Shown in pieces: positions 2,249 through 42,321 of a DNA stretch of 64,000 nt. Within the stretch, counting starts at the first letter, position 1. Every line of letters begins with the position of its first letter. The DNA comes from an uncultured bacterium (GTDB taxonomy: Bacteria > Oederibacteriota > PGYV01 > Palsa-1178): NCBI GenBank assembly GCA_937889595.1, contig CALAOR010000076.1, forward strand, positions 1 through 64,000, given 5' to 3'. The position numbers were made by a program, and so were the translations under genes. Below the pieces are notes generated by a model. It was not told where the DNA came from. It saw only the letters and a program-made list of their open reading frames with translations, and ran no database searches.

Positions 2249-2276
2249 TTGACACATGAAAATTCGGGGCTATAAT
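2249..2276 (+). promoter_or_regulatory. Sigma-70-type promoter of the GH9 gene
   Basis: TTGACA (2249-2254) and TATAAT (2271-2276) are both perfect consensus boxes, separated by 16 bases. Transcription would begin near 2283. This rules out the ATG at 2256, which lies inside the promoter, and supports the ATG at 2307. A TATAATTATA palindrome overlaps the -10 box. Confidence 0.75.
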
Positions 2277-2306
2277 TATAGTGGTGAGGAAGAACGAGGA
2301 GAGTAT

Positions 2307-5720: not shown

Positions 5721-6031
5721 AATTTCGGGATTCATTGAAGGCAGAGCGGAGTTTTGGAAGTGATTGAAATTAAACGGGGTTTTCCAGCTTAAAAACCAAT
5801 GATTTTGAGACCTTGTTTTACGATTTGATACCGCATGATTATCATATGACTTAATCTTAAAAATGCCAATAAAATAAGGCACAAACAAGAAAAACCTTGA
5901 TTTATTCATATTTACTGGTAAACTGTCCTAATAGAACGAAACCTTTCGAGGATTTGGTTGTCTTAAACTTGTAGCTTTTTTTTTGACGATTTATTTAAAT
6001 GTTTAAACCACTTTTTAATGAAGGGAAAAAC
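5721..6031. other. Intergenic stretch, no feature recognised
   Basis: These 311 bases lie between the GH9 gene and the next secreted enzyme. They are AT-rich with a T-run at 5976-5984 and weak promoter-like boxes (TTGATT near 5898, TTGACG at 5983-5988), none convincing. No gene, hairpin terminator or dispersed repeat was identified. Confidence 0.5.
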
Positions 6032-9148: not shown

Positions 9149-11227
9149 ATGGAAAACAACGAAATTTTTCGTAAAAATACGGTATCAACACTGTTGCACC
9201 AAATAATCCCATATTTTTTTATACTATTCCTGCTGGTCCCTTCAACTATTCGATCCGCAAATTTTGGCACAGATACAGCGGAATATCTGAAAATAAACCC
9301 TGAAGCCGGCCCTGCAGGCATGGGTGAGGCATATACAGCTATAGCAGAAGGGACAAATGCGCTTCAGTATAACCCTGCGGGACTTGCCATCATGGATAAA
9401 GGCGAGCTTACTGCGACCGAACTTTTCTGGTTCAATTCCATTTATATGACGCACCTGGCATTTGGATATCCGCTTGATTATGGGTTCGGGGTCGGCGGTT
9501 CATTATTATGGATAAGTTCGGGAAGTTTTGACTCCACAGGCGGAGCAGCGGCCCCTGTCAGTATGGAAGACGGGGTAATAAACATCGGAGTTGGAAAAAG
9601 CATAGGTGAAAACATACATTTAGGCTTAAGCCTGCACGGATTGTATGAACATTTTTCGGCAGGTCCGTCTTTATCAGTTTCTTCAATGGGGTTTTCCACA
9701 GATGCCGGCGCCGTGTTTTACCTGGGTTCAAGAAACCTGACCTTGGGGCTTACAGCCAAAAACATGGGGATCTTATTTGGGAACCTGGACCCGCTGCCCA
9801 TGGAAGCGGCAATAGGGCTCGGCTACAGGCTTTATAACGGTTCTTTTGATTTTTTGAATGTGGCGCTTGATTTTTCCAAGGTTATAAATACGGACAATTT
9901 TTTTGCGGCCCTCGGAGCCGAGGTGTACGTGTTCCAGGCTGTGGCGCTCAGGTTTGGCCTGCGTTACAACAATGCGCTTGGGATGGACAGGGTCAGTTTC
10001 AGTAATATACAGAACATGCTTATTTTCTCGGCGGGTGCGGGTATAAATATAAATGATACTTTTACGGTTGATTATTCCTACACACCTATGGGCGATCTGG
10101 GACAGATACAGAGGATAACTTTGAAAATAAAGTTCGGTGATTCATGGTACGAAAGAAAGATGGCGGAAAAGAATGTCAAGATCGAACCTAAGGCCATTGA
10201 AATACCTGAGGTTAATGTGGCGGGCGGCGAGATAAAAAATGTGTCATTTAAACCGAATGTGCCGCAGGAAAATGTCAAGGAATGGACCCTTGCCATCAAA
10301 ACCTCTGATGGTAAGATCGTCAAGTCATTCTCCGGTGTAGGCGAGGTGCCGAAGACCTTAAATTGGGACGGAACGGATGCGTATGGCCGGATATCCAAGT
10401 CGGACGTAAATTACGTTTTTGATTTCAAGGCAAAAAATGACGCCGGTCAGACTATCAAGACAATAGGCCAGATAGTACAGGCAAAGCAGTTTGATTACAT
10501 GCACGAAGAGGACAAAAAATTCACGCCGCTTAAAGGCGGTGAAATGCTTGTCGCCCCTGTAACTCTTTTAGTGTCATCCGACGCGGAAGAGAGAAAGTCC
10601 GTGCCTTTTGTAATGGTTAATAAGGACATAAAGCAGGTCAAGAACTGGGATTTCGCAATATATGACGGGAACGGCGCGCTTTTAAAGAAATTCTCAGGCG
10701 GGGATATGATACCGTCCTATCTTGTATGGGACGGAAAAGATTCATACGGCAATTATGTGAAGGACTTAAAATCATGCAAATATGTGCTCGACTTGACGGG
10801 CGTTGACGGAAAAAAGGCCGAGATAAAAGACAGGCAGGTGATGAGGGATCCTTTTGTAATATCCGTCGGGTCCAGAAAACTGAAAATGGCGCAGAGGATC
10901 TATTTTGAGAACAACCTTTACGCGATAAATCCACAGATGATGCCGAGATTGGATTCCATAGCGGCGGATATCAGCGGATACAGCAATGTCCAGATATATA
11001 TACAGGGGCACTCTTCCAGCGAGGGCGATACCGCGTATAACATCAAGCTTTCCCAGGACAGGGCAAAATCAGTGCTCCGGTATCTTGTGGAAAAACACAG
11101 GATATCCCCGCTTTCAATTACAACCGTAGGGTACGGCGCCAATATTCCGATAGACAAAGGCACAACTGAAGATGCGAAAATGAGGAACAGAAGGGTTGAA
11201 ATAATAATTATAGGTGAAAAAGAATAA
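9149..11227 (+). CDS. PorV-like outer-membrane barrel fused to an OmpA domain
   Basis: This encodes 692 residues. A signal peptide (about 1-37, ending near IRSA) is followed by a PorV/PorQ-like beta-barrel (about 38-330). Its hallmark start is PEAGPAGMGEAYTAIAEGTNALQYNPAGLA. The middle (about 365-575) has two FlgD-like Ig segments, each with a WDG motif (NWDGTDAYG, VWDGKDSYG). The C-terminus (about 585-692) is an OmpA/peptidoglycan-binding domain with IQGHSSSEG and NRRVEI. PorV acts in type IX secretion as an outer-membrane shuttle for cargo; OmpA domains bind peptidoglycan. The combination in one chain is unusual. The stop overlaps the next gene's ATG (TAATG), so the two are translationally coupled. 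Confidence 0.88.
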   Translation: MENNEIFRKNTVSTLLHQIIPYFFILFLLVPSTIRSANFGTDTAEYLKINPEAGPAGMGEAYTAIAEGTNALQYNPAGLAIMDKGELTATELFWFNSIYMTHLAFGYPLDYGFGVGGSLLWISSGSFDSTGGAAAPVSMEDGVINIGVGKSIGENIHLGLSLHGLYEHFSAGPSLSVSSMGFSTDAGAVFYLGSRNLTLGLTAKNMGILFGNLDPLPMEAAIGLGYRLYNGSFDFLNVALDFSKVINTDNFFAALGAEVYVFQAVALRFGLRYNNALGMDRVSFSNIQNMLIFSAGAGININDTFTVDYSYTPMGDLGQIQRITLKIKFGDSWYERKMAEKNVKIEPKAIEIPEVNVAGGEIKNVSFKPNVPQENVKEWTLAIKTSDGKIVKSFSGVGEVPKTLNWDGTDAYGRISKSDVNYVFDFKAKNDAGQTIKTIGQIVQAKQFDYMHEEDKKFTPLKGGEMLVAPVTLLVSSDAEERKSVPFVMVNKDIKQVKNWDFAIYDGNGALLKKFSGGDMIPSYLVWDGKDSYGNYVKDLKSCKYVLDLTGVDGKKAEIKDRQVMRDPFVISVGSRKLKMAQRIYFENNLYAINPQMMPRLDSIAADISGYSNVQIYIQGHSSSEGDTAYNIKLSQDRAKSVLRYLVEKHRISPLSITTVGYGANIPIDKGTTEDAKMRNRRVEIIIIGEKE

Positions 11228-12312
11228 TGCGGGCCCTGGTGATATATATATTGATCGCCGCGGCCGCAGCCGCAGCCGGCGCAGGATGCCAAAAAGCCGC
11301 TGCAGAGCAGTACAAAAGCCCTGAAAATCTTTTTAACCTGGCGACAGAGGCCATGGTGAAGGGAAACGACGTCCTGTCCATAGACCTTTATTATAAACTG
11401 ATCGATTCATATCCGGATTTCAATAAATACAGGGCGGATTCGATTTACAGGCTCGGGATGCTGCTGTATAAAACGGAGCGTTATGACGAAGCTGAAAAAA
11501 TTCTCGCGCTTTTTGCGGCTAAATTCAAGAATGACGACAGGTTAAGGAATGTTTATGAAAAGCTGATATATATTTACATGCAGGAATTCCATGACGAACA
11601 ACGGGCACAGTCGGTCAGGGCCCTTTATGCGGAGAAATTCAAGGAAAGCCCGGTTTTAAAGGATATTGATAAAACAATAAATATCCTGTCAACCGATGAA
11701 AAGACCGGCTCGGCTGTCCTTGCCATGAACGCGGGAAACATAGGGATAATTAAAATGCTCAAAACCGGTGAAATAGACAGGGAGTTTTTTCCTGTAAGAA
11801 ATTACGTTTTAGTAAGCGTCAAATCCCCGGACGGGAAGTTTGCGGCTGAAAAGAGGGAATTTTCCGGCGATTACAGCCTTTTCTTCGGGGCAATTGGCTC
11901 GAAAATGCAGAGAATAGAAGGCTCAACAGGCGCGTACGCGCCCCAATGGGCGTGGAACAGTAAATACATATTCTTTACATCCATGGATTGGCGGAGCAAG
12001 GAAAGAAGGATCAGGGTTTATGATACAGCCGGGAAAAAAACCCGGGAATTATTCAGGGCAAAAGGCGTGGGCCCGCTTCTGTGCATATCCCCGGATTCGG
12101 CCAAAATAGTTTTCACGTATCTTGACAAACTCTGGATAATGAACAGCGGCGGCAACTCGGTCGCACTGCTCAGCAAAAATATTGATGTGAAAGATATCAG
12201 TATGATAGCATGGTCGCGGGAAGGCGATTCCATAATTTACTCCAAGAAAAACGAAAAAGATGTTTATTACCTGTGTAAACTCGGAAGAAGAGAGATAGAA
12301 GCCATGCAGTAA
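11227..12312 (+). CDS. TPR/beta-propeller lipoprotein (PorE-like architecture)
   Basis: This encodes 361 residues. The signal peptide is alanine-rich and ends in a lipobox GAGC, with Cys21 as the lipidated residue. Residues about 30-160 look like TPR/Sel1-type helices (YRLGMLLYKTERYDEAEKIL). Residues about 185-361 look like TolB/PD40 propeller blades (APQWAWNSKYIFFTS, CISPDSAKIVFTY, IAWSREGDSIIYSKK). The TPR-then-propeller order of a lipoprotein recalls PorE of type IX secretion, which also ends in an OmpA domain; here OmpA is absent but present in the gene overlapped upstream. The assignment as PorE-like is inference from architecture. It probably sits at the periplasmic face of the outer membrane. 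Confidence 0.75.
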   Translation: MRALVIYILIAAAAAAAGAGCQKAAAEQYKSPENLFNLATEAMVKGNDVLSIDLYYKLIDSYPDFNKYRADSIYRLGMLLYKTERYDEAEKILALFAAKFKNDDRLRNVYEKLIYIYMQEFHDEQRAQSVRALYAEKFKESPVLKDIDKTINILSTDEKTGSAVLAMNAGNIGIIKMLKTGEIDREFFPVRNYVLVSVKSPDGKFAAEKREFSGDYSLFFGAIGSKMQRIEGSTGAYAPQWAWNSKYIFFTSMDWRSKERRIRVYDTAGKKTRELFRAKGVGPLLCISPDSAKIVFTYLDKLWIMNSGGNSVALLSKNIDVKDISMIAWSREGDSIIYSKKNEKDVYYLCKLGRREIEAMQ

Positions 12313-18098: not shown

Positions 18099-18761
18099 AT
18101 GGCGGAAATTGACATAGATAAAATGCTTGAACAGAATGAGAAAAAAGACAAGGCGAAAAAAGCAAAATCCTGGATGATGACGCTGGTAATAGCCGGCTGC
18201 GGCGCCGCCGTGCTTGCCATAGCCGGGATCATAATCACCATGCTTATCATCGGCGAGCCGGGCAGTTCTTTTTTTCCGACCACTCCGGGAATAAAGTACG
18301 TCTACAATAAAAAAGGCAAAAATCCGGAAGAAAGGTCCTTCCTGGATAAAAAGGAAAATCTTTACGGGTATGTTTGTTCGGTCCTGAATATAACCGACAA
18401 GGGCTCATACACGACCAGGCAGGAATACTACTGCGTGGACAAAGAAAAAGGCTACGCCAGGCTGGCTTATTCTTTTAACCACGGTCCAAAAGAAAAAGAT
18501 ATTTTTGTGATAATGCCCTACAACATAAAAGACGGCAAACAGTGGAACGCAGGCATGGTAAAGGATAAGGTTGTAAAGGCCGTGATTGTAGGCCGTGAAA
18601 AAATGACGACTCCGGCAGGTGAACTTGAGGCGATCAGGGTTGAATACAAAGCCGCTCCCTATATGGATGAGGTTATCTGGTACGCGAAGGACCTGGGAGT
18701 TGTAAAAGAACAAAATAATCTGACAGCTGACGAGACGTCTTTGATCAGCTCTGGTGAATGA
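18099..18761 (+). CDS. Inner-membrane-anchored protein of unknown function
   Basis: This encodes 220 residues with AGGAGG just before the ATG. A charged cytoplasmic N-terminus of about 26 residues is followed by one membrane segment (about 27-51, TLVIAGCGAAVLAIAGIIIT) and a soluble region of about 165 residues outside. The soluble region has a beta-rich pattern (GIKYVYNKKGKN, IDEVIWYAKDLGVVKEQ-like end) and TTPAGELEAIRVEY, a pattern seen in exported DUF3108-like or lipocalin-like proteins; I cannot name the family. Its stop codon overlaps the ATG of the SprA-like gene (ATGA), so the two are translationally coupled. That makes a supporting role in the same envelope process plausible. Confidence 0.7.
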   Translation: MAEIDIDKMLEQNEKKDKAKKAKSWMMTLVIAGCGAAVLAIAGIIITMLIIGEPGSSFFPTTPGIKYVYNKKGKNPEERSFLDKKENLYGYVCSVLNITDKGSYTTRQEYYCVDKEKGYARLAYSFNHGPKEKDIFVIMPYNIKDGKQWNAGMVKDKVVKAVIVGREKMTTPAGELEAIRVEYKAAPYMDEVIWYAKDLGVVKEQNNLTADETSLISSGE

Positions 18762-21700
18762 TGTTCCTGAAGAAAATCCCTGAAAATACAGATGTCATAC
18801 TGTTCATTCTTGTTGTAATGATCTGTATTTTTATGCCTTTTATTTCCATCGCGGATAATAATCTGGTTATACCTGCCCCGCCCGCAACTGAAGCGCCGGC
18901 TTCCGTAACAGCGCCGGCTTCAGCGACAACGCCGGTTTCAGTGACAGTCCCGGTTTCCGTGACAGCGCCTGCTTCCTTAACAGCGCCTGCTTCCGTGACA
19001 ACTGGGGCCGCAGTCAAACCTGAAAAAGGCCCTGAATTCTTAAAGGCCGAGGCCAAAGGAGTATTGGTTTTTTTGACCTGGGATAAAGCCGGGAAAACAG
19101 ACACGACCTATAATATATACAGGAGCACATCGCCTGAAAAAGGCTTTTTGAAAATAAACAAGGAAGAAGTAAAAGAAAGCGCATATACAGACGGCCGCGG
19201 GACAAGCCTGACCCCGCCTGTAAGCGGAAAACTTTACTATTACAGGATCACATCAGTGGATTTTGGGGTGGAATCACAGGATTCCAAAACAGTGCTGGCC
19301 ACGCCTTTTGCGCCGCTTGGCCCCCCCGACCAGATAACCGTATTGCCGGGTTTTTCTTTTGTTAAGATAAAATGGGTGGAACCGGACGCGTCGGGGAATA
19401 TCGGCGTCAGCGGATATAATATTTACCGGTCCACGCAGCCGGGCATCCTGGCGCGGATAAACCCCGTGACAATTACAGCTTATGAATACGATGACGCGGG
19501 CCTCACAAACGGCGCCAGGTATGATTACATGCTGCAGAGCGTTGACGCGCTGGGGAACACCTCGGCTTTATCCGCTGTTTTTTCAGCCGTGCCTTTTTCC
19601 CTGATATCGTCGCCCAAGAACCTTACGACAACAGCCGCGTCTTCCGAGTCTATAAAACTCATATGGGACGCGCCTGACGGCGGCGGCACATACGGCATAT
19701 CGGGATATAATATTTACAGGTCGACCCAGGCCGGGGTTTTTTCCGATAAGCCCATAAATGAAAAGATGACAAAGGGCCTTAAAACGCCGGAGAACAGGCT
19801 GTTTTATTTTGATAATATGATAAATTCCTGGTTCCAGCCATTGCCCGGCAATACTTACTATTATAAAATAATACCCGTTGATTTCCACGGGAATACTGGC
19901 GCTGCAAGCGATACCATTACGGGCGCGGTGCCGGTCATAGAAGTCAACAAACAAGGCATAATATCCGCGGACATATCCGAGTACGGGTTACCGCCGGAGT
20001 CAAAACTCACGCTTTCCGGAAGAAAAACGCTTTCCATGGCATATACCCATACATGGTGGAAAAACAACACCGTGGCCCAGACAGAAAAATTCGATATAAC
20101 GCAGAAATTGAAACTGAACCTTAAGGGGAACATAGGCACAAAAATAAACGTGGACGTCAATTATGATGAAGATACGCTGACCGACGAATACACAAAAATA
20201 TCCATAAGCTATGCGGGCGAAAAGGACGAAACCCTGCAGGAGGTTTCATTCGGCGACTTGACCCTCGACCTGCCCGCCACGAGGTACCTAAGCTACGCGC
20301 CGCAGAAACTTTTCGGTATCCGCGGCAAGGCAAAGATAGGCGACAAACTGACAATAACCGCCCTCGCGGCCCAGACAAAAGGCATCAATGACACACAGGT
20401 TTTCATCGGAAAAGTGCGCAAGAAACAGACAAACCTAAGGGACGGCGTGGATATATACGATACGGCTTATATCAAGAACACTTATTATTATATAACAAGA
20501 AATGTTCCATTGCAAAAAATCCAGCCCGGGTCATTGAAGATCTACAGGGATGACTATGGCGCGACCCTGGTTGATTTAAATACGCGTCTTTCCACGCCGA
20601 ATAACACTTATCGTTTCAGGGAGCTGTATTCAGGCGTGGATTTTATTGTTGATTACACTACAAATGTAATAAAATTTAATGTTCCCATAGCAGACACCAA
20701 CATACTTGCAGTGGGATATAAGCTCGCAGACGGAACTCCGATCGGCTTGGACTTCAGCGGGAATGTGGACATACAGGAGGCAAAGCTTAGTTCAAATACC
20801 GACGGCACTACGGACGACGGGCATCATCTTATTCAGAACGGCACACAGACCAGCACCCAGGCGGATTTATCGCACAGGGTTTTAAGTTACTATAATATGG
20901 GTGATACAAATATAAATAATCCTGTTACAGACACGGGCGGGTTTAAGATAATAATAACCAAACCGGATGACACGGGCAGTTATTTTATACCGCAGCCATG
21001 GGAACCCAAAGCGTCTGATATTTATACAATCGATACGGATTTCGGAATATTGATGTTCAAGAGTTATGCTCCTTTTGCCAAACTACAGTATGATAATAAT
21101 TCGCCGGGTGCCCAGTATAACGGGGTGGAAGACGGGACCCAGGATGATGCTTATAAATCCAATGCCCCAAAATCCCTTTTCAAGATACACCTTAATTATA
21201 ATTTCAATGTTTCTTCATACAAACTGGATAACTCGCCGCTTGTGGTCGCGAGCGAAAGGGTGCTTATAAACGGACTGCTGAAAAAAAAGGATGCGGATTA
21301 CACCATTAATTATGAAGCCGGGGAAATTACTTTTAATAAAGATATCGAGGCCGGCATAACCAGCAATACCGAGGTAAAGATATCCTATGAATACCTGCCG
21401 TTTGTCGGCGCGACAAGCAGCAACCTTTTCGGCGGCAGGATGGATTATGCCCTTCTTGACAATTTAAAACTCGCGTTAACAGGGCTTTATAAGACCTCAA
21501 ATGCCGGGACCACGGTCCCGGACGCGCGCTCCACCATAACGTCCTTAAGCACCCCCTATAATTCGCTCGTGATCGACGGGAACGTTGATTTTGTTTTAAA
21601 CAGGGAAAACGTGAACGCCATAATAAACGCGCTTCCGCTGTTAAATAACAGCGATCTGCCCGTGGATTTCAAGTTCACAGCCGAGACCGCGTACAGCGAC

Positions 21701-24700
21701 TTGAACCCAAATGTATACCAGCAGACATTGTCCAATGGAAAGGTTGAGAACGGCCCTGCCATGATAGATGACATGGAATCAGCCGATATTACAACATCAG
21801 CCGACACGTTGGTAAATCATTGGTTCCCGGCATCCAAGCCCTCGATCGTGACTGACACTAATCCGGGAAATAGGGATTTCATGGTTAGAAGCAACGTAAC
21901 TGAAGCCGGGAACCAGCCGACATCATCGGACCCTACAGGCGTAAATTCGTCGGTTCAGATGCTTAAACTTAACTACAGCGGGCTGACGGATCAAAAGTGG
22001 GATTCTTTCAGGTTTGTCCTGAACTCATCGGGTGAGAGTTTGAACCAGTACAATACACTTGAGATAGCTGTTAAGGTTTCCACTGACCAGCCCGTAAAAA
22101 TGAGCCTTGATGTGGGAATAATAAGCGAGGACTCAAACGGGACCGGTGAGTTTAAGGTTAATGATCCCGGTGTTGCAAACGGCGAAAGCGAAGATTCCGA
22201 TAAAAATGGAATTTTGAACACCGGCGAGGATATTGGCATTTACCCTGGTATATATAGGGGTTTTCCAGGCAGTACTCCGGCGTATTGGGGCGCAGGGAAC
22301 GGCGGAAACATCCCGGACACGGAAGATATGAATAACAATACACGGCTTGACATGGGTGAGTCGTATTATCACTTTGGTCCAGAAGGCTTGTCATCGAATT
22401 TGGCCAACAGCAACAACATTGTCCACCCTGAACTTTTACTGCAAAACAGCGATAACTGGGTTGATATAAAAATACCCCTTAAGGATTATACTTATATTGT
22501 TGGTTCCGTGGCACACGATAATATAGGGATGAATAAGGACCAGTATATGTCATTTATAAAACATTTGAGGATCAATTTCAAGGGTTCAAGCGCTACCCCG
22601 GCATCGGGCACCATAAAGATACAGACAATAAAGTTCACGGGCAATTCATGGAACCTTGAAACTCCGCCGAATGAATCTGACAGGGCGGGAAATCCGGTTG
22701 TTGTTGATGCCTCAAAACTGAACATTGAATCAATAAATCAAAATATATTGGATGCTAAAAAGGCACCTATAACTGATTATACTCCGAACCTGGATTATTT
22801 TGTCTGGACAACCGAGAATGATAAAAAATTTGAAACATCGCTTAAAATGACGTATAAGATATCAAACCTTGACCAGGGCAGCGCTGATAATCTGCCGTTA
22901 TATTACGCGACCAAGTCGCTTAATGCCTCGGGCGGTTACGATTTTCACGCGTATAAATATCTTAAAATGGACGTATATTACAAGACACAGGATCCCCAGG
23001 GCGGCAACGGGCGTGTTATATTCTTAAGAGTAGGAAGCGGAAACAATACTGATACTATCCAGCGATATTACCAGTATAATGAGCAGCTTGATGATATAAA
23101 AACCGGGGGATGGCGCACAATAGTATTCGTCCTGGACGGTTCCGACGGAAAGAGAAGTTCCACGCCAACCCAGCCCAATCTTAGGCAGGCGCAGTATATA
23201 TCAGTAGGCTTTATCAACCCCAATATGACACAGCCGTCGGAAGTAATGTATGTTAATAACATCAGGCTGACCGACGCGCAATCCTCGACAGGACGCTCAA
23301 CCTTTATAAATACGGTCATGAATGTCACGGGGGTCGGGAACTTAAACCACACTTACGAAGATAAAGAAGCGACTTTTTATACATTGGCAGACGCGGGCAG
23401 GGCCGATATAAAACAGCATGAGATATCAAACAACCTTTCTTTTAACTACACGCAACTGCCGTTCCTGCCCGTTACATTCAACTATTTCAAAAATTCAAAA
23501 TTCCTTGACGGACCCAATAAAAATGACCCTTCATATACTCAGGACAACCAGGTTTACGACGTTTACAGCGAAGGCTACACTAATGTTGTAAGTTTTTCCC
23601 TTATACCGGACCTGAATATCTCGAACGGGACAACAGTCAGGTCAGACGATTATATTTATCCGGGCGCCGCTTCATTCGAGAGCAATCTGACAAAATCCAT
23701 GATTTTCAATCCCACTCTTTCATGGAAGGCGCCGGCTAATTTGTTCTTCATTCCTTTAGGCTCCAATAATTTTGACGGAAAGATCACGTTTAACAACCGG
23801 GAAACCACATATAGCAGCGTCGATCTGACTTTTACCGCGGGGACATCATATTATTACAACTGGCGCAATGACAGGAACCAGGATTACAAATGGATCGGGG
23901 CATACAGCTTCCTGGGGATCTCAGTCCAGCCTTCATACGAGTATATGAGGGGCGATGAAATAGGCTATCTCGCCTCAAAATATGTTTATTACCAGGATTC
24001 AATCACGGACCCCCATTACCTGGTCGACAAGTATTATATCTTGAACACGCAGATAATGCCTAAGCTCAGTATCAGCTACCCTGACGCGTGGATATTCTCT
24101 CCACAGATAAACTATAACAATGAATACAGGATGGACTACACGCAGTCATTCCTGGACAATCACGGCAAACTTGACGTATCCACGGGCATGGCCCTGAAAA
24201 AACTGCTGGGCTGGATGCCCGGCATAAGCAGGTATTCTTTCACCGTTGAAAGCACACAGCATTTTGAGGAAATAAGCTATCCCGGCTCTTTCGCAAAATA
24301 CAACAGCATGCCTTTTGAAAGCAGGTGGAATATTTTCCTGTGGAAGATGCTGGGCGACGAACATGAGATAGCGCGCTATGAAACTGCCGCGAAGAACGGC
24401 GCGTTTATTATATCTCATAACTTAAGCCTGGAAGAGATAAATATAATGTCGGCCGTGGCATTCACCCCGGTTGCCTCATATTCGCTTAACAGGACCTTTT
24501 ACTCGCAGGGCGCCGTGCGCCAGTTCAGCGAGGGTTTCACATTATCCGCGAATAACATAAATATCAATAATGTGACCATACCGCTGCCGTTCCTGCAGGA
24601 CCTGGTATCCGGCCAGAAGGTCACGGGCAGTTATTCCTATGTGCGGAATCTGACCAAAGACACAAATAAGGTCATAACACTGGATGACATCACGAATAAT

Positions 24701-25153
24701 TTCTCCGTGCAGCTGCCTTATGCCTCAAAGAACGGGTTAAACGGCGTATTCAGCCTGACAGGCAGCAGGGATGACAAGAGACAGGGGTACTTAAGGAGCT
24801 GGAGCGGGACCTTAACGCCATCGCTTACATTGAATTTCAAATACAGGCAGACGGCCCCGATAACATTTCCCAGCTGGCTGTGGCTTTTAGGCGACAAGAC
24901 TTTCCGCATGGAGCAGAACCTTGACCTTGGAATTAATATCAGCGTAAAATACACCATGGGCGGGGACAATGACCTGAACATAAACAAAGCCAATGCAAAG
25001 GAATATACTTTAAGCACCACGGCTGCGTATAAGATCCTACAGAACCTGACTGCCACCCTGACCATGTCATACGGGCATGAGGATAACAGCTGGAAAACCG
25101 ACCAGGAATTTGACAGTTTCATGATAAGCCTTGGAGGAGTCATAGAATTTTAG
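18758..25153 (+). CDS. sprA: SprA/Sov-like giant outer-membrane protein with N-terminal FN3 domains
   Basis: This encodes 2131 residues. A signal sequence (about 1-32) is followed by a repeat-rich APASVT segment (about 46-81), three fibronectin type III domains (about 91-391, each with a NIYRST motif), and then a region that reads like SprA. It has KLKLNLKGNIGTKINVDVNY (about 443-462), then SISYAGEKDETLQEVSFGDL and QKLFGIRGKAKIGDKLTITA (about 515), and MIDDMESADI (about 1001), which matches the IDD(F/M)E stretch of SprA. The C-terminal half is strongly beta-stranded and ends in aromatic GVIEF, typical of an outer-membrane barrel. SprA/Sov forms the translocon of the type IX secretion system. 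Family length is about 2300-2500; the FN3 modules are an addition I do not know from Bacteroidetes. Assignment rests on motif recall, not a search. Confidence 0.8.
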   Translation: MMFLKKIPENTDVILFILVVMICIFMPFISIADNNLVIPAPPATEAPASVTAPASATTPVSVTVPVSVTAPASLTAPASVTTGAAVKPEKGPEFLKAEAKGVLVFLTWDKAGKTDTTYNIYRSTSPEKGFLKINKEEVKESAYTDGRGTSLTPPVSGKLYYYRITSVDFGVESQDSKTVLATPFAPLGPPDQITVLPGFSFVKIKWVEPDASGNIGVSGYNIYRSTQPGILARINPVTITAYEYDDAGLTNGARYDYMLQSVDALGNTSALSAVFSAVPFSLISSPKNLTTTAASSESIKLIWDAPDGGGTYGISGYNIYRSTQAGVFSDKPINEKMTKGLKTPENRLFYFDNMINSWFQPLPGNTYYYKIIPVDFHGNTGAASDTITGAVPVIEVNKQGIISADISEYGLPPESKLTLSGRKTLSMAYTHTWWKNNTVAQTEKFDITQKLKLNLKGNIGTKINVDVNYDEDTLTDEYTKISISYAGEKDETLQEVSFGDLTLDLPATRYLSYAPQKLFGIRGKAKIGDKLTITALAAQTKGINDTQVFIGKVRKKQTNLRDGVDIYDTAYIKNTYYYITRNVPLQKIQPGSLKIYRDDYGATLVDLNTRLSTPNNTYRFRELYSGVDFIVDYTTNVIKFNVPIADTNILAVGYKLADGTPIGLDFSGNVDIQEAKLSSNTDGTTDDGHHLIQNGTQTSTQADLSHRVLSYYNMGDTNINNPVTDTGGFKIIITKPDDTGSYFIPQPWEPKASDIYTIDTDFGILMFKSYAPFAKLQYDNNSPGAQYNGVEDGTQDDAYKSNAPKSLFKIHLNYNFNVSSYKLDNSPLVVASERVLINGLLKKKDADYTINYEAGEITFNKDIEAGITSNTEVKISYEYLPFVGATSSNLFGGRMDYALLDNLKLALTGLYKTSNAGTTVPDARSTITSLSTPYNSLVIDGNVDFVLNRENVNAIINALPLLNNSDLPVDFKFTAETAYSDLNPNVYQQTLSNGKVENGPAMIDDMESADITTSADTLVNHWFPASKPSIVTDTNPGNRDFMVRSNVTEAGNQPTSSDPTGVNSSVQMLKLNYSGLTDQKWDSFRFVLNSSGESLNQYNTLEIAVKVSTDQPVKMSLDVGIISEDSNGTGEFKVNDPGVANGESEDSDKNGILNTGEDIGIYPGIYRGFPGSTPAYWGAGNGGNIPDTEDMNNNTRLDMGESYYHFGPEGLSSNLANSNNIVHPELLLQNSDNWVDIKIPLKDYTYIVGSVAHDNIGMNKDQYMSFIKHLRINFKGSSATPASGTIKIQTIKFTGNSWNLETPPNESDRAGNPVVVDASKLNIESINQNILDAKKAPITDYTPNLDYFVWTTENDKKFETSLKMTYKISNLDQGSADNLPLYYATKSLNASGGYDFHAYKYLKMDVYYKTQDPQGGNGRVIFLRVGSGNNTDTIQRYYQYNEQLDDIKTGGWRTIVFVLDGSDGKRSSTPTQPNLRQAQYISVGFINPNMTQPSEVMYVNNIRLTDAQSSTGRSTFINTVMNVTGVGNLNHTYEDKEATFYTLADAGRADIKQHEISNNLSFNYTQLPFLPVTFNYFKNSKFLDGPNKNDPSYTQDNQVYDVYSEGYTNVVSFSLIPDLNISNGTTVRSDDYIYPGAASFESNLTKSMIFNPTLSWKAPANLFFIPLGSNNFDGKITFNNRETTYSSVDLTFTAGTSYYYNWRNDRNQDYKWIGAYSFLGISVQPSYEYMRGDEIGYLASKYVYYQDSITDPHYLVDKYYILNTQIMPKLSISYPDAWIFSPQINYNNEYRMDYTQSFLDNHGKLDVSTGMALKKLLGWMPGISRYSFTVESTQHFEEISYPGSFAKYNSMPFESRWNIFLWKMLGDEHEIARYETAAKNGAFIISHNLSLEEINIMSAVAFTPVASYSLNRTFYSQGAVRQFSEGFTLSANNININNVTIPLPFLQDLVSGQKVTGSYSYVRNLTKDTNKVITLDDITNNFSVQLPYASKNGLNGVFSLTGSRDDKRQGYLRSWSGTLTPSLTLNFKYRQTAPITFPSWLWLLGDKTFRMEQNLDLGINISVKYTMGGDNDLNINKANAKEYTLSTTAAYKILQNLTATLTMSYGHEDNSWKTDQEFDSFMISLGGVIEF
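18893..19000 (+). repeat. Six 18-bp tandem repeats in the SprA-like gene
   Basis: Six units of 18 bases (first unit GCGCCGGCTTCCGTAACA at 18893-18910) encode APASVT-like hexapeptides between the signal sequence and the first FN3 domain. They form an Ala/Pro/Thr spacer, and the copy number may vary between strains. Confidence 0.85.
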
Positions 25154-25167
25154 GAGGGAACTTTAAT

Positions 25168-28100
25168 ATGAAAAAGGTTTTTATTGCCGCTGTAATGTTA
25201 TGCGTTTTTTCCGCGGTTGTTACGGCTGACTGGGATGCTTCAATGGTGCGCGTTGAATTTGACGGGCCGCAGCTGATAGTAAACTGGCTGCCGGTGACGG
25301 ACCCGGCGCCGGTTACCTACACGGTTTTATTCGCCGTATACAGGTCGGGAGTGACACTCACAAGCGACGCGCAGTGGAACGCGCTAACGGCCCAGGCCGA
25401 TTCCTTGCCGCAATCGGTAAGCATATATGCCGATGTCCTGCCGCTGACCTATACGGCTTTTTACAGGATAAAAAAATACACGAATCCTTCTGACGGGATA
25501 TATTCAAAGACCGTAAGTTCGTCGAGCCCGGGAAGCATTACTGATCATACAGGCTATGATTCAAAGGTATTTTTGGCGTGGGTTAAGTCCGCTGACCCGG
25601 ATGTCCTGTATTACAACGTATACAGGTCCACAAACCCGGGGCTTTTTGACGCTGTTAAAATGGGAAACGTCAGCGACACAAAAATAGTGGATTATTCAGC
25701 GGCCAATCTTATTGGATATTTTTACCGGATACAGCCTGTGTCTGATGTGGAAGGGTCCTTTTCCGGATATGTGAATGTCACGCCTTTTGCCGCGCCTTTT
25801 GCGCCCTCATATGTTTATGTTTCACCTTCAGCAGACGGGACTTCTGTCAGCCTGACATGGACAGCCACAGCGCTCAGGGGTTCATATGACATATCAGGCT
25901 ATAATATTTACAGGTCAACCTCGCCTATAACAATCGCGGACGCGCCTGTTGAAACAGCTAACAGTTATTATCTGGATTCAAGCCTTATACCCGGAACATG
26001 GTATAATTACCAGGTAAAAACTGTGGACATCATGTCAAATACTTCAGCGCCTTATTCGTTCACTGTGTTTACGACGGGCCCGCCTTTTGCGCCGGTTAAT
26101 GTCAGGGCACAAAGTGCGAACGCGTCATTAGCGGTTGTCTCTTGGGACAATAACAAAAGCAGTGAGGCTGTAATAAGATATCACATATATGAGACAGGTC
26201 TTGAGAAAGGAACGGCCCTGGCCAGCCCGTATACGGACAGTACGGCGGTTTCAGGGGGGAAATATTTGTACACGGTAAAGGCAGAAAACCCATCCGGATT
26301 AAGCCCTTTTTCTTCGGCTGTTGCAGTAACTGTCATGCCTGACGCGCCACTGGACCTTAAAGTGCTGCCGGGCGTTTCGCCCGGGTCCTTGGACTTAAGC
26401 TGGCAGCCGATTGCCCCAATTGAAAATGTTACAGGTTATAATATCTACAGGGCCTTGACCCCTCTGTCATTTAATTTCAGCACACCTATAGTCACCAATG
26501 TGACGCTTTATGCTGATATTGATGTCGCGTCAGGGCAGAATTATTTTTATACGATTTCGGGCTTCTCCTCAGTGGAAGGCGCAATGTCAATCACGGCAAG
26601 CGCTGTGCCGGTTTCAAGGACCGTACAGGTTTCAGGGCTGACTGCCACGGCTTTCAACGGTTACGCCCTGCTTGACTGGGATAATGCAGGGCCGGCGTAC
26701 GGCGTTACAGGTTATAATATATACAAAAGCACGGACCCTTCACCGGTTTTATTTACATACTCGTCCTACGTGACACCGGCAGCAGGGACTTTAAGCAGCG
26801 GCTATGTGACCGGGCTTAATACGCTTGGCATACCATACTACCTGAAGGTGACGGCTTTGAATATTTACGGGGAAGGCGATACTGTAAACGCCTCCTATAT
26901 AGACATTACCATGACATCCGAGGCGGTTGTTGAAAAACCGGAAAATGTGACGGCTACCAGCCAGGGAGACGGGCAGATAAACCTGGCATGGAACGCCGCG
27001 TCTGATTCAAGGGTAACTATTTATAATGTTTACAGGAGCACTTTTGCCGGTTCCTATAATTACGCGTCGCCATTAACTTTTACCGGAAATAATTCATATA
27101 TTGATAGAACCACAACCGCGGCAATAGGCGTACCGTATTACTATGAGATTAGGTCATATGGAGCTGTATCTGAAAGCGCATCTTCGGCTGAAGTCAGCGC
27201 CACGGCATTTTACCGGCCTTATCCGGTTAATAACCTTACTGCTTCATACATAAATGGAAATATCTGGCTTTTATGGAGCGCACCCGCCCAGAAAGGCACC
27301 TATGATTTTCCAACTGAAGAATACAGGGTTTACAGAAGCACAACGCTTGTTTTTCCCGGCACCCCTTTACCCGGGGGCGGCTCCCTGACAGCGGAACAAT
27401 TCGTGGACTCAACAATTGACCCTGCGCCACAAACGTATTATTATAAAGTCACTGCATTTGATGCCCATGGGAATGAGAGCATTAATCCGGTAATTAGTTC
27501 CTCGATAGAAATTTCTTCCCCGCAGAAGCCGCCGGCAACGCTCGTGGCCCTGGCCGGGGACGGCAAAGTGGTGCTGATATGGAAAATGGTATCGCCGCTG
27601 TATTACAATATTTACCGGAGGGAAGCTTCAAATCCGGTTTACGGCCAGCCGATCGCGTACAATGTATCTTCCACGCTTAAAGATTATACGGACCAGAATT
27701 TGGCGGACGGCACGACTTACTATTACATGATAAAGGCGGTCAATGCCGCGGGCGAAGGCCCGGCGTCCATGGAAGTATCGGCAACGCCGTACATTGCCGT
27801 TACTTTGCCGGCCGGCGCGGCCGTGACAGCCGTTATAGCGGATAAAAAGGAAGTATTGGTTTCATGGTCTCCGGCAATTTCGGGCAGTCCTTTCACGCTT
27901 GCAGGGTATTATGTAATGAGGAGTTCTGACGGAGGAGGAAGTTACAGCACACCGCCGATCACTCTTACAACGCAGACAAATTATCTGGACAACTCGACCG
28001 AATGGAATAAAACATATTATTATATCGTAAAAACACTTGATTCAGGCGGAAATATAGACGGCATATACAAGCCCGTTAGTATTACCCTGCCTTTACCCGA

Positions 28101-28407
28101 AAATAAGATCAGAGTTTTCAGGAACCTGATGAACCTGGCGCTGGGAGACACCCTGAAACTGCGGTATGTCCTGACCCAAAACGGCAGGATCAAGCTCAGG
28201 GTTTACACGCTGTCAGGTTCGTTTGTGACAGAACTTGTTGACATAAATATAACGGACAGTATTGATTCCCAAAATCCCTATGAAAGCGCGGACCTGTATT
28301 GGGACGGGACGAATAAAGCCGGCCAAAAGGTGGCGTCAGGCGTGTACATCCTGTCGCTTGAAACGCCGAAATCAAGGGTTATAGAAAAAGTGGCGGTTGT
28401 GAAATAA
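25168..28407 (+). CDS. Secreted protein with about ten FN3 domains and a sorting-like C-terminus
   Basis: This encodes 1079 residues with a signal peptide (about 1-21, ending VTADW). About ten fibronectin type III-like modules follow, several with the exact motif GYNIYRST or a near copy (YNVYRSTNP, GYNIYKSTDP, YNVYRSTFAG, YRVYRSTTL). The last 100 residues (about 975-1079) form a FlgD-like Ig domain with WDGTNKAGQKVASGVYIL, ending VIEKVAVVK, as in type A sorting domains. It starts 14 bases after the SprA-like gene and shares its FN3 type, so it is a good candidate for cargo or a surface partner of that protein. No enzymatic domain is seen. Confidence 0.85.
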   Translation: MKKVFIAAVMLCVFSAVVTADWDASMVRVEFDGPQLIVNWLPVTDPAPVTYTVLFAVYRSGVTLTSDAQWNALTAQADSLPQSVSIYADVLPLTYTAFYRIKKYTNPSDGIYSKTVSSSSPGSITDHTGYDSKVFLAWVKSADPDVLYYNVYRSTNPGLFDAVKMGNVSDTKIVDYSAANLIGYFYRIQPVSDVEGSFSGYVNVTPFAAPFAPSYVYVSPSADGTSVSLTWTATALRGSYDISGYNIYRSTSPITIADAPVETANSYYLDSSLIPGTWYNYQVKTVDIMSNTSAPYSFTVFTTGPPFAPVNVRAQSANASLAVVSWDNNKSSEAVIRYHIYETGLEKGTALASPYTDSTAVSGGKYLYTVKAENPSGLSPFSSAVAVTVMPDAPLDLKVLPGVSPGSLDLSWQPIAPIENVTGYNIYRALTPLSFNFSTPIVTNVTLYADIDVASGQNYFYTISGFSSVEGAMSITASAVPVSRTVQVSGLTATAFNGYALLDWDNAGPAYGVTGYNIYKSTDPSPVLFTYSSYVTPAAGTLSSGYVTGLNTLGIPYYLKVTALNIYGEGDTVNASYIDITMTSEAVVEKPENVTATSQGDGQINLAWNAASDSRVTIYNVYRSTFAGSYNYASPLTFTGNNSYIDRTTTAAIGVPYYYEIRSYGAVSESASSAEVSATAFYRPYPVNNLTASYINGNIWLLWSAPAQKGTYDFPTEEYRVYRSTTLVFPGTPLPGGGSLTAEQFVDSTIDPAPQTYYYKVTAFDAHGNESINPVISSSIEISSPQKPPATLVALAGDGKVVLIWKMVSPLYYNIYRREASNPVYGQPIAYNVSSTLKDYTDQNLADGTTYYYMIKAVNAAGEGPASMEVSATPYIAVTLPAGAAVTAVIADKKEVLVSWSPAISGSPFTLAGYYVMRSSDGGGSYSTPPITLTTQTNYLDNSTEWNKTYYYIVKTLDSGGNIDGIYKPVSITLPLPENKIRVFRNLMNLALGDTLKLRYVLTQNGRIKLRVYTLSGSFVTELVDINITDSIDSQNPYESADLYWDGTNKAGQKVASGVYILSLETPKSRVIEKVAVVK

Positions 28408-30376: not shown

Positions 30377-32074
30377 ATGAACAAAATACTTATAACGGCA
30401 GGCGTTTTGATATATATGTGTTTATTTTCGCGCATCAGTGCTGATGTCTGGACTGACTATCACGGTACCACAGGCACGGCCGGTATTGACACCGGTTCGA
30501 TGTTTAATGAGTTTTCAGTCTTGAAACCTCCGTTGGTTTTATCGTGGTCGCAGACAGATTGGAATGGTCCCGGAATGACTTCGGTATTCGGTTCGGCACC
30601 AGTGGTTGCAAATGGTATTGTATATCTTGGTGCGGAAGATCATAATGGAACCGGCACAAGCCATCTTTTGTATGCGTGGGACACATCCACCGGGAACGGC
30701 ATTCCGGGATTTCCTGTTGGAGTTTTGGGCGATGTAACGACCGCTCCTGCGGTTGCCAATGGAATAGTATATGTTGGTTCGAAAAATGACGGGTTATATG
30801 CTTTTAATGCCACGACAGGAGCAATTATCCCTGGGTTTCCGTCTAACACAGGAGGTAATACATATACATCCCCGGCCGTATCTAAAGGTATTGTGTATGT
30901 GACAGGAAATGGGAAAAAATTATACGCTTTTAATGCCGCTACAGGTGCGGCAATTGCCGGATTCCCTGTTGGGGCTGACTTGTTCTCAAATCCGGTTATC
31001 ACAAACGGAAAAATATATGAGGTGTCGGGTGTTGACGGTAAATTATACGCATGGAATGCCTTAACTGGGTCTGCCATAGTTGGATTTCCTATAACATTAA
31101 ATCCGGTCGGCGGGTTTAGTCAGCCTATTGTGGCAAACGGGATCGTTTATGTTGGAGCGAGCGTATATAGCGCTTCTGGTTATAAGTTGTTTGCTTATAA
31201 TGCGGCAACAGGTGCCGGGATAGCTGGTTTTCCCGTTACTATGAATGAACCAGGATATGGTGCTCCATCAGAACCGGCTGTGGCTAATGGGGTTGTGTAT
31301 ATTACCATATATAATGGATCAGTGCCCGATACAAAAATATATGCCTTTAGTGCTTCAACTGGGGCAATAATGCCGGGTTTTCCGGTTGATATGAACGATG
31401 TTTGTTGGACATCGCCGAGGATTGCGAATGGCTACTTATATATCAACAATAGTTATAATAAAGTGTACGCAATTGATATTGCGGATGGAAGTATTGTATG
31501 GCAATATCTGATGCCGATAAATGGGTCGTTTGCAGGGGCACCCTACGGAGGTCCTGTTATTGCGGAAGATAAACTATTTGTTCCATGCGATTACGGCGAT
31601 GGGATCTTTGTATTCTGCGTTCCCAGCCCTACTGTTACGCCGACGATAATAATAACTGCAACTTACACACCGACAGTTACGCCAAGTATTACAGTTTCGT
31701 TGACTTTGACCGTTACTGCTACAATAACTGTGACGGGGACAATAACTTCCACTTACACAATTACACCAACGCCTCTGCCGAAGTTCAGACTTGAGGTGAA
31801 AGGCAATTATCCCGCCCCGTTCAGCGGCTATACGGATATAGTTTTTTTTGTTTCCAAATCGGCGAGTGTAGAAGTCACAATATTTACCGTATCAGGTGAA
31901 GTGGTGGTAAAAAAGCAGGCGTATTACCCCGCCGGTTTCGGAAAATATAGTTGGGATGGGTCAAACGGAGGCGGGAAAAAGGTGTCATCGGGTACTTATT
32001 TATATCGCGTGGAAGCAGTAATTGATAATGAAAAGCAAACAAGTAAAATACTAAAAATGACCTGTGTGAGGTGA
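30377..32074 (+). CDS. Secreted PQQ-like beta-propeller protein with sorting-like C-terminus
   Basis: This encodes 565 residues. Signal peptide (about 1-22, ending RISAD), then PQQ/pyrrolo-quinoline-like propeller blades (about 40-410) with repeating units such as VVANGIVYLG, LYAFNATTGA and the recurrent I.GFPV motif (IPGFPV, IAGFPV, IVGFPI, IMPGFPV). A short Thr/Pro linker (about 417-468) and a FlgD-like domain (about 470-565) with YSWDGSNGGGKKVSSGTYLY follow. No cofactor-binding residues can be assigned, so it is more likely a structural or binding propeller than a dehydrogenase. The codons look more A/T-rich than the neighbours (not counted), and an IS remnant lies just upstream, so a recent arrival is possible. 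The stop overlaps the next gene's GTG. Confidence 0.85.
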   Translation: MNKILITAGVLIYMCLFSRISADVWTDYHGTTGTAGIDTGSMFNEFSVLKPPLVLSWSQTDWNGPGMTSVFGSAPVVANGIVYLGAEDHNGTGTSHLLYAWDTSTGNGIPGFPVGVLGDVTTAPAVANGIVYVGSKNDGLYAFNATTGAIIPGFPSNTGGNTYTSPAVSKGIVYVTGNGKKLYAFNAATGAAIAGFPVGADLFSNPVITNGKIYEVSGVDGKLYAWNALTGSAIVGFPITLNPVGGFSQPIVANGIVYVGASVYSASGYKLFAYNAATGAGIAGFPVTMNEPGYGAPSEPAVANGVVYITIYNGSVPDTKIYAFSASTGAIMPGFPVDMNDVCWTSPRIANGYLYINNSYNKVYAIDIADGSIVWQYLMPINGSFAGAPYGGPVIAEDKLFVPCDYGDGIFVFCVPSPTVTPTIIITATYTPTVTPSITVSLTLTVTATITVTGTITSTYTITPTPLPKFRLEVKGNYPAPFSGYTDIVFFVSKSASVEVTIFTVSGEVVVKKQAYYPAGFGKYSWDGSNGGGKKVSSGTYLYRVEAVIDNEKQTSKILKMTCVR

Positions 32075-38450: not shown

Positions 38451-38479
38451 TTGACATAAAAAAAATATTATGTTAAATT
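38451..38479 (+). promoter_or_regulatory. Candidate promoter of the PorV/flagellar operon
   Basis: TTGACA (38451-38456) is followed after 17 bases by TAAATT (38474-38479) preceded by TG, an extended -10 arrangement. The upstream ATG at 38470 lies inside this promoter, which supports GTG 38554 as the real start. The rest of the 38259-38553 gap holds a small hairpin near 38296-38317 (GGTTTTC/GAAAACC). Confidence 0.5.
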
Positions 38480-38553
38480 TAAGTACTTGCAAAGTTCATA
38501 TAATTGCAACAGGTTTTTACATATTGGAATATTATACGCATCGGGAGGCAATT

Positions 38554-40662: not shown

Positions 40663-42321
40663 ATGAATAAAAAGTCTGCTTTGTTAACCGCGTTGTTTGT
40701 CTTGTTTGCGGCATTTGCTTTTGGGGGAGCTTTTGATAAAGGCGGAGTTTTAGGCGTGGGCGGCAGGGCCACGGGCATGGGAGACGCATTCGGCGCCATT
40801 GCCGATGACGGAAGCGCAGTTTACTGGAACGCGGCGGGTTTGACCCAGCTTGACAGGTCCGAACTGAACCTGTTTTTGGGGCCGCTTTTAAACGGAAAAG
40901 AGTGGTATACGTTCCTTTCTTTTGGCTCCCCGTTTTTTGCGGATACTGCCTGGCAGTTGTCGGTTATGTCACTTATACACGGCGATAAGAATAACACCAA
41001 GGAATTTACAGTGGTGGGAAGTTTTGCTTCAAATCTGAATCTCGAAAGGACTTTTTCAGTCGGGATCAACGTCAAATATTTAAATTATAATTCCACAGCT
41101 TCATATACAACGCCCGATGGGGTCAATCTTCAGGGAATCGCGAGCGGTCTCGGGCTTGATCTTGGGGTTTTATACCAGATCCCGCTCCCGCAATTGGGGA
41201 AAAAGCTTAACTTCGGATTATTCATACAGGACGTGGACACCAGCCTCTACTGGTCTGGCGGAACAAGCCAGGAACAAATACCGACTGTATTTAAGATCGC
41301 ATCGGCTTACTATCTTGATGACAACCTCGTTTTTTCAGTGGATTACGATTTTTTTAAGGATTTAAACATCAGCGGCATCCCTCTTGCAACCCCGATATAT
41401 GATTCGGTAAACAATGTCACTATAACAGCCTTAACACCGCAGGAAGACAGGGTGCACGTCGGTATAGAAGGATGGTTTTTCAAAAGGCACCTGGGACTTC
41501 GCGGAGGATATACCGCATTTGCCACCATGGCGGGGGAGTTTACGGGCGGAGTATCATACAGGGAAGATTCATGGGAAGTTGATTATGCTTACATAGGGCA
41601 CGCCGAGCATCTCGGCGACTCGCACAGGCTGTCTGTAATATTAAGATTCGGCCAGCCTAAGGATCAGACAAGGGCGGTCAGCGTGGTCAGGCCGCCGAAA
41701 GATCTGAAAGCATATCCGGCAAACACGGCGGTAAACCTGACATGGGAGACAAATGAGGATCCAAACATAACAGGTTATGCCGTATACATGAGCAAATCGC
41801 CGGGCGCAAGATATATCCCTATAGCAAAGAGGATAAAAGAGAACTATGTGACCATAGACGGGCTTCAGAACGGAACAAGATATTATTTTGTGGTAGCGGG
41901 TATCAATAACACTTTTCCTTCGGTTGAGAGTTCGTATTCAAACGAAGCCTCGGCTGTTCCGGCGCCTGTTGTTCCGGGAACGCCTGAAGTATTCCCGATA
42001 TCATCGCCCAAAAAAGTCGAAAGCAACGGGGCCGTGGACATACCGTGGGGAACAATGCCGGGCCCCAGGATGACCGGATTTAATATATACATTACCGATA
42101 CGCCGGGAAAAGGATATAACAAGGTAAATCCTGCGCCGATCAAAGATAAGCATTATGTTGTAAAGGGACTTGAGGTGGGAAAGAAGTATTATTTCGTAAT
42201 GACATCGGTTACAAACGATACTCCGCCTGTTGAATCCCGCTTCTCAAAAGAATTTAATTATATATCAAGGCCTGAAAACACCCTGCCTGGCGACACAACA
42301 CAGCCGCAGGGCAACAGGTAA
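40663..42321 (+). CDS. PorV-like outer-membrane protein with two FN3 domains
   Basis: This encodes 552 residues, with TAGGAG before the ATG. Signal peptide (about 1-21), then a PorV-like barrel (about 25-340) whose start, GVLGVGGRATGMGDAFGAIA, and SAVYWNAAGLTQL are close to those of the preceding gene. Two FN3-like domains close the protein: one beginning PPKDLKAYPANTAVNLTWET with GYAVYMSKSP, and one with GFNIYITDTPGKGY. The stop is 19 bases before flgF, so it belongs to the same transcript. PorV relatives act in outer-membrane export of cargo; the FN3 pair would lie at the surface or in the periplasm, which cannot be decided from sequence. Confidence 0.83.
   Translation: MNKKSALLTALFVLFAAFAFGGAFDKGGVLGVGGRATGMGDAFGAIADDGSAVYWNAAGLTQLDRSELNLFLGPLLNGKEWYTFLSFGSPFFADTAWQLSVMSLIHGDKNNTKEFTVVGSFASNLNLERTFSVGINVKYLNYNSTASYTTPDGVNLQGIASGLGLDLGVLYQIPLPQLGKKLNFGLFIQDVDTSLYWSGGTSQEQIPTVFKIASAYYLDDNLVFSVDYDFFKDLNISGIPLATPIYDSVNNVTITALTPQEDRVHVGIEGWFFKRHLGLRGGYTAFATMAGEFTGGVSYREDSWEVDYAYIGHAEHLGDSHRLSVILRFGQPKDQTRAVSVVRPPKDLKAYPANTAVNLTWETNEDPNITGYAVYMSKSPGARYIPIAKRIKENYVTIDGLQNGTRYYFVVAGINNTFPSVESSYSNEASAVPAPVVPGTPEVFPISSPKKVESNGAVDIPWGTMPGPRMTGFNIYITDTPGKGYNKVNPAPIKDKHYVVKGLEVGKKYYFVMTSVTNDTPPVESRFSKEFNYISRPENTLPGDTTQPQGNR

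Follow-up and report, generated by a model that had tools for sequence, protein, structure and literature searches.

A SprA homologue with an N-terminal FN3 arm and an adjacent poly-FN3 gene in the Goldiibacteriota/FCPU426 phylum

Abstracts on the type IX secretion system restrict it to Bacteroidota or to the superphylum that includes them. The N-terminus of its outer-membrane protein SprA has been located in the periplasm of F. johnsoniae, where it binds SkpA and SprE; PMC10994853 presents it as an extended periplasmic tail that is enclosed by a SkpA trimer and touches SprE. Here, a 64,000-nucleotide stretch of DNA (the window) was analysed, in which a gene homologous to SprA carries FN3 modules ahead of the conserved core. 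A search of the open-access literature, outside of which most subscription papers lie, returned no report of FN3 in SprA. The gene, its core and its upstream neighbour are located as follows.

18758..25153, + strand: SprA/Sov-homologous outer-membrane translocon, 2131 aa (TIGR04189; phylum profile against 6h3i)
19958..25150, + strand: SprA core and barrel, aa 401-2131 (profile alignment to 6h3i, starting at F. johnsoniae residue 145)
18099..18761, + strand: 220-aa protein directly 5' of SprA, weakly DUF3108-like (ORF list; Pfam PF21347)

The SprA/Sov equivalog model TIGR04189 matches the 2131-aa reading frame with 186.4 bits (E 5.5e-55), which lies below the cut-off of 200 bits, and the protein is therefore not assigned to the family at the equivalog level. 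Homology in the broad sense was established with a profile built from 21 homologous sequences of the phylum, which shows significant similarity to solved SprA across the core: it matched PDB entry 6h3i (F. johnsoniae SprA) at E 1.2e-49 and also six further F. johnsoniae SprA entries, with the match beginning at F. johnsoniae residue 145, right after the FN3 region. When the PDB was searched with the window's single SprA core sequence alone, no match was obtained at E 10. As judged from sequence, the best explanation of reading frame 18758-25153 is that it encodes the pore by which a type-IX-like secretion system of the Goldiibacteriota/FCPU426 phylum crosses the outer membrane. The 220-aa gene overlaps the SprA start by 4 bases, and its product matches PF21347 at E 1.8e-4, under the cut-off. 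Most of the readable genomes of this order have a homologue 5' of SprA, in some cases separated from it by one gene. In several relatives a gene of ~545 aa lies between the 220-aa gene and SprA and was considered as a SprE candidate; it was dismissed as three of the sequences look chemoreceptor-type, a judgement made by eye and not by family search.

Before the core, the protein consists of a likely signal peptide, a repeat-encoded spacer and three FN3 modules (aa 89-391), referred to here as the arm.

18892..19000, + strand: 18-bp tandem repeat in 6.1 copies, encoding the spacer that links signal peptide and arm (TRF)
19022..19309, + strand: SprA FN3 module 1, aa 89-184 (HMM, 78 bits; AlphaFold2 model)
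19316..19594, + strand: SprA FN3 module 2, aa 187-279 (HMM, 86 bits; AlphaFold2 model)
19607..19930, + strand: SprA FN3 module 3, aa 284-391, with an insert common to the same order (HMM, 82 bits; alignment)

The HMM used to place and count the domains was built from the window's own modules. Independent evidence agrees with it: Pfam fn3 (PF00041) matches the arm at E 7.5e-5 (23.3 bits; gathering cut-off 25), phmmer against the PDB returned titin FN3 tandems at E 4.4e-18, and an AlphaFold2 model of aa 85-648 reaches block pLDDT values of ~73-94 across the three-FN3 stretch, with which Foldseek found solved FN3 arrays at E ~1e-13. The barrel part of that model is poor, as expected for a fragment, and the junction between arm and core has a pLDDT below 50. 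The original prediction of a SprA-like protein with three N-terminal FN3 domains is thus borne out. It had also let the feature begin at 19028 with a repeat spacer; the 18-bp repeat is real but sits 5' of that position. It encodes a stretch rich in Ala, Pro, Thr, Val and Ser, whose counterparts in relatives differ in sequence. A GYNIYRST motif had further been proposed to be shared with the gene downstream. The exact motif does occur in both proteins, twice in SprA (modules 2 and 3) and only once in the neighbour (module 3), but SprA module 1 reads TYNIYRST and variants in other neighbour modules include YYNVYRST, GYNIYRAL, GYNIYKST, IYNVYRST and EYRVYRST. In the phylum collection, the relaxed motif Yx[IVL][YFHL]R is present in 69 of 71 SprA modules and 92 of 162 neighbour-type modules, and is therefore a general FN3 signature here.

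Of the 45 genomes in the phylum set, whose named relatives comprise Goldiibacteriota, candidate division FCPU426, Firestonebacteria and one Coatesbacteria record, 43 contained the SprA core. Six genomes (two without a match, three with C-terminal fragments, and G028) fall outside the count of N-termini. Among the 39 N-termini read, 30 carry the arm, with three FN3 modules in 21, one in eight, and one judged by eye and missed by the HMM in G023. The arm was undetected in the other nine (families f8 and f9), where the N-terminus measures 164-188 residues. For comparison, SprA was found in 62 of 80 genomes of the phylum to which a Bacteroidetes locus belongs. Together with two Poribacteria and the starting Bacteroidetes locus this gave 65 outgroup loci (64 distinct, as one genome is counted twice), in whose examined reading frames a second HMM, built from all 238 collected modules, detected no FN3 (0 of 65), with the reservation that the core start was not properly located in six loci and that an FN3 as diverged as the one of G023 could escape the scan. 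The expectation that classical SprA has no FN3 modules accordingly held in all 62 Bacteroidota loci, and a Pfam scan of eight Bacteroidota SprA N-termini likewise found no FN3. One of the six mislocated loci (L179, G126:C7) lies in a frame of 6508 residues whose C-terminal part matches SprA from model position 1136 on, which is either a giant fusion or a frame artefact.

To follow the history of the arm, a tree of the SprA core was calculated without the FN3 columns from 35 phylum members and seven outgroup sequences. Armed and unarmed proteins are separated by a single change, and the nine armless proteins form one clade. The three deep groups of the tree are not resolved relative to each other, so that one gain and a gain followed by one loss fit equally. 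The arm is old and inherited across the phylum, and its distribution fits best with a single gain on the branch that leads to the armed clades (or a gain plus one loss), followed by vertical inheritance. The number of FN3 modules (one or three) shifts mainly by clade, with the exception of G022. In the three-FN3 proteins, 60 of 63 modules have their best cross-genome match at the same SprA position, and all three misses belong to G022. Its protein (L071) has a three-FN3 arm within a one-FN3 clade, and the modules match no other SprA position well, which suggests that this arm was built independently.

Downstream of SprA lies the second FN3-containing gene.

25168..28407, + strand: poly-FN3 neighbour, 1079 aa, with signal peptide, ten FN3 and C-terminal domain (ORF, HMM, synteny)
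28093..28404, + strand: type-IX-like C-terminal domain of the neighbour, last 104 residues (PorZ and PorU C-termini, TIGR04183, FlgD_ig)

As predicted, a protein with ten FN3 modules by HMM (PF00041, 73 bits; cut-off 25) is encoded 14 bases past the SprA stop codon, which is overlapped by a Shine-Dalgarno-like AGGAGG; the two genes are probably co-transcribed. The C-terminus of the neighbour matches that of PorZ (E 7.1e-6) and that of PorU (E 1.9e-4), and scores 19.4 bits against TIGR04183 (cut-off 23) and 20.8 bits against FlgD_ig (cut-off 27). Among 16 of the 17 complete neighbour-type C-termini, the PorZ model matched 16, PorU 14 and TIGR04183 11 at E 0.01 or better. Against solved structures, a profile of this domain found FlgD best (E 8.8e-4), while 5m11, which we take to be PorZ, was matched at E 0.047. 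In the Foldseek search with the neighbour model, the match list was filled by the FN3 half and the C-terminal domain gave no fold-level match. The ten-FN3 protein is most likely either a dedicated exported cargo or product, or an accessory or component of the same system.

The gene pair recurs in the phylum. In each of the order's nine readable genomes, the poly-FN3 gene comes next after SprA, with mutL behind it. An FN3-rich gene lies directly 3' of SprA in 19 of the 32 genomes with a readable downstream region, these being the nine of the order and ten from f7, f14, f15 and f16, and no such gene was found at this place in the other 13. A profile of the neighbour's last FN3 and C-terminal domain (16 members) scores at least 134 bits in 29 of 44 genomes; in two further genomes the poly-FN3 gene is cut by contig ends. 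The orthologue is missing in the remaining 13, namely all nine armless genomes plus four of f11; the latter have a three-FN3 arm, and their best matches to the profile span the C-terminal domain only. These four genomes speak against a strict coupling of arm and neighbour. The poly-FN3 gene stands between SprA and a comF-like gene in the four one-FN3 genomes of f16, and the comF-like gene follows SprA directly in the six armless genomes compared and in two f11 genomes (comF and the glycolysis genes that follow were named from the sequences by eye). By its pattern of presence and gene order, the poly-FN3 gene appears as a conserved but dispensable companion. The proposal that the two proteins are linked therefore holds insofar as a conserved gene pair makes a functional link plausible, but the exchange of modules is not supported and the joint surface fibre is unlikely.

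Origin by domain exchange was put forward in the original prediction, which named a closer relation of the modules within the pair than to other FN3 families as the supporting observation. The opposite was found. The window's SprA modules reach 144, 156 and 162 bits with their positional counterparts in the sister genome and 35, 50 and 47 bits with the best module of the neighbour; they are closest to the SprA orthologues of other genomes, and the neighbour's modules are only distant FN3s. Protein identity between SprA and neighbour modules has a mean of 31% and a maximum of 38%, which we regard as the same level as that among the window's three SprA modules (35-39%). In an FN3 tree of 82 rows, which has few columns and many weak deep forks, the order-level groups S1, S2 and S3 each contain their own orthologues and stand apart from the neighbour modules. 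Identity to the sister genome amounts to 68-76% for the arm modules, 67-68% for the SprA core, 54% for the neighbour's array and 84% for its C-terminal domain. Within the order, module 3 exceeds the other two modules in conservation in three of five comparisons, and in three of the four that involve more distant members. A possible gene conversion tract between SprA module 3 and neighbour module 3, where the best local DNA match has 33 of 39 bases (~38-39 bp), was rejected. The amino acids are near-identical there, and under a synonymous-codon control the match has a P of 0.006 for this one pair and is ordinary as the best of 30 module pairs. Reciprocal scores, FN3 tree and DNA comparison all argue against exchange; recent exchange is not supported by these comparisons, and the neighbour is most likely not the source of the SprA arm.

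Other candidate type IX components are encoded in the window and elsewhere in the genome. Four PorV/PorQ-family proteins surround SprA (9149-11227, 32071-34041, 38470-40653 and 40663-42321); three pass the cut-off of 90 of the carrier model NF033709 (100.5, 142.7 and 90.8) and the fourth scores 70.4. Two of them end in OmpA, one has FlgD_ig and one has two FN3 modules.

40663..42321, + strand: PorV/PorQ-family barrel with two C-terminal FN3, a possible periplasmic partner (NF033709, 90.8 bits; cut-off 90)

OmpA domains bind peptidoglycan. The OmpA and FN3 fusions on PorV-family barrels fit a design in which scaffold domains are carried by the barrels. Adjoining a PorV-OmpA protein is a TPR and beta-propeller-like protein (11227-12312), and the two together recall what we take to be the domain set of PorE, split over two genes. 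Two large secreted proteins with Thr/Pro-rich linkers (2256-5720, cellulase-like by sequence reading, and 5999-8533) have C-terminal domains of the same general kind. The catalytic region of PorU was matched by a 1508-aa reading frame (L082, C10:37702-39003) with 62 bits (cut-off 420); this frame also has a C-terminal domain match of its own at C10:41053. Of the 52 PorU-model matches in the genome, 51 lie within the C-terminal portion of the model; all are below the full-model cut-off, and 47 reach E 2.5e-4 or better, a loose threshold at which the model also matched five of 14 control genomes. For the motor and ring proteins, GldL had no match in the window's own genome, and GldM and GldN had none in 44 genomes; these results are no sign of absence, as GldM was also missed in a SprA-bearing Bacteroidetes control.

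We favour, with moderate confidence, the reading of the FN3 arm as a periplasmic docking arm, for which we infer both function and location. Because the N-terminus of F. johnsoniae SprA is periplasmic (PMC10994853), the arm should be periplasmic too. One to three FN3 modules, joined to the signal peptide via the low-complexity spacer, stand at the position in the sequence where F. johnsoniae SprA has its SkpA-bound tail; in the periplasm at the pore rim, the arm could hold periplasmic machine parts, or incoming cargo, beside the channel, and would so perform the task of the SkpA/SprE-binding tail of Bacteroidota. The homology to SprA, the start of the profile match just past the FN3 region, the presence of the arm in 30 of 39 phylum N-termini against none of the 65 outgroup loci, the modules being about as conserved as the core, their positional orthology, the single change in the core tree, and the PorV-family proteins with C-terminal FN3 pairs or OmpA domains in the same genome count in favour. 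Against it count that the location is taken from the topology of a distant homologue, that nine phylum members manage without an arm, that the junction of arm and core is modelled too poorly to orient the arm, that the SprA score is under the equivalog cut-off, and that an OmpH/Skp-family gene is present in the genome (86 bits), which may be an ordinary chaperone. A wider proposal, which we consider speculative and rather doubtful, is that Goldiibacteriota and their allies use a rebuilt type IX system, where the separate periplasmic scaffold known from Bacteroidota (SkpA, SprE and perhaps a motor-linked ring) would be replaced by domains fused to barrels, that is, the FN3 arm on SprA and FN3 or OmpA on PorV-family carriers, plus the co-encoded poly-FN3 protein as a dedicated component.

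The docking arm has to be weighed against a role as receptor for the adjacent poly-FN3 protein, by which periplasmic FN3-FN3 contacts would bring this cargo to its own translocon before export. The frequent position of an FN3-rich gene directly behind SprA, the lack of the orthologue in all nine armless genomes, and the comF-like gene, which follows SprA itself in armless genomes and the poly-FN3 gene in one-FN3 genomes, point in this direction. We nevertheless think it unlikely: the f11 genomes keep a three-FN3 arm with no orthologue, the armless genomes are one clade, so that the correlation may be a single event, and the 47 other matches resembling the PorU C-terminus indicate that there are probably many cargos. 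It is also improbable that the arm is a passive spacer, in which any small stable domains would serve to lengthen the N-terminus or fill the periplasmic gap. The varying FN3 number and the unconserved low-complexity stretch would suit such a filler, but not modules whose conservation between sister genomes equals that of the core, nor a module 3 that leads in most within-order comparisons and carries an order-specific insert. The original prediction suggested that modules were exchanged and that both proteins could build a surface fibre on the translocon. FN3 arrays in two co-encoded proteins are what such a fibre would need, yet with position-by-position orthology and separate groups in the FN3 tree we hold it for very improbable; moreover, the homologue's N-terminus is periplasmic (PMC10994853), and the neighbour has the look of an exported cargo, which by itself could nonetheless be surface-exposed.

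A SprA homologue that occurs across another phylum, and whose presumably periplasmic end is built in another way, lends itself to comparisons on what the N-terminus of SprA has to do, and the armless, one-FN3 and three-FN3 forms are ready variants for testing the periplasmic organisation of the translocon. SprA/Sov of Bacteroidota (TIGR04189; 6h3i, 8gl6) shares with the window protein a homologous core, the nature of a large outer-membrane protein and PorV-family genes nearby, whereas the window protein has an FN3 arm instead of a SkpA-binding tail, scores 186 bits against a cut-off of 200 and belongs to another host phylum. The type IX C-terminal sorting domain (TIGR04183/PF18962; PorU and PorZ C-termini) is resembled by the last 104 residues of the neighbour and of its relatives, although the window's copy stays below the TIGR04183 and FlgD_ig cut-offs and is also FlgD_ig-like. 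With the extended SkpA-SprE translocon of F. johnsoniae, as described in PMC10994853, the arm would have in common a periplasmic element that is anchored at the pore through the N-terminus of SprA; the difference is that here this element, the FN3 arm, is encoded within SprA itself.
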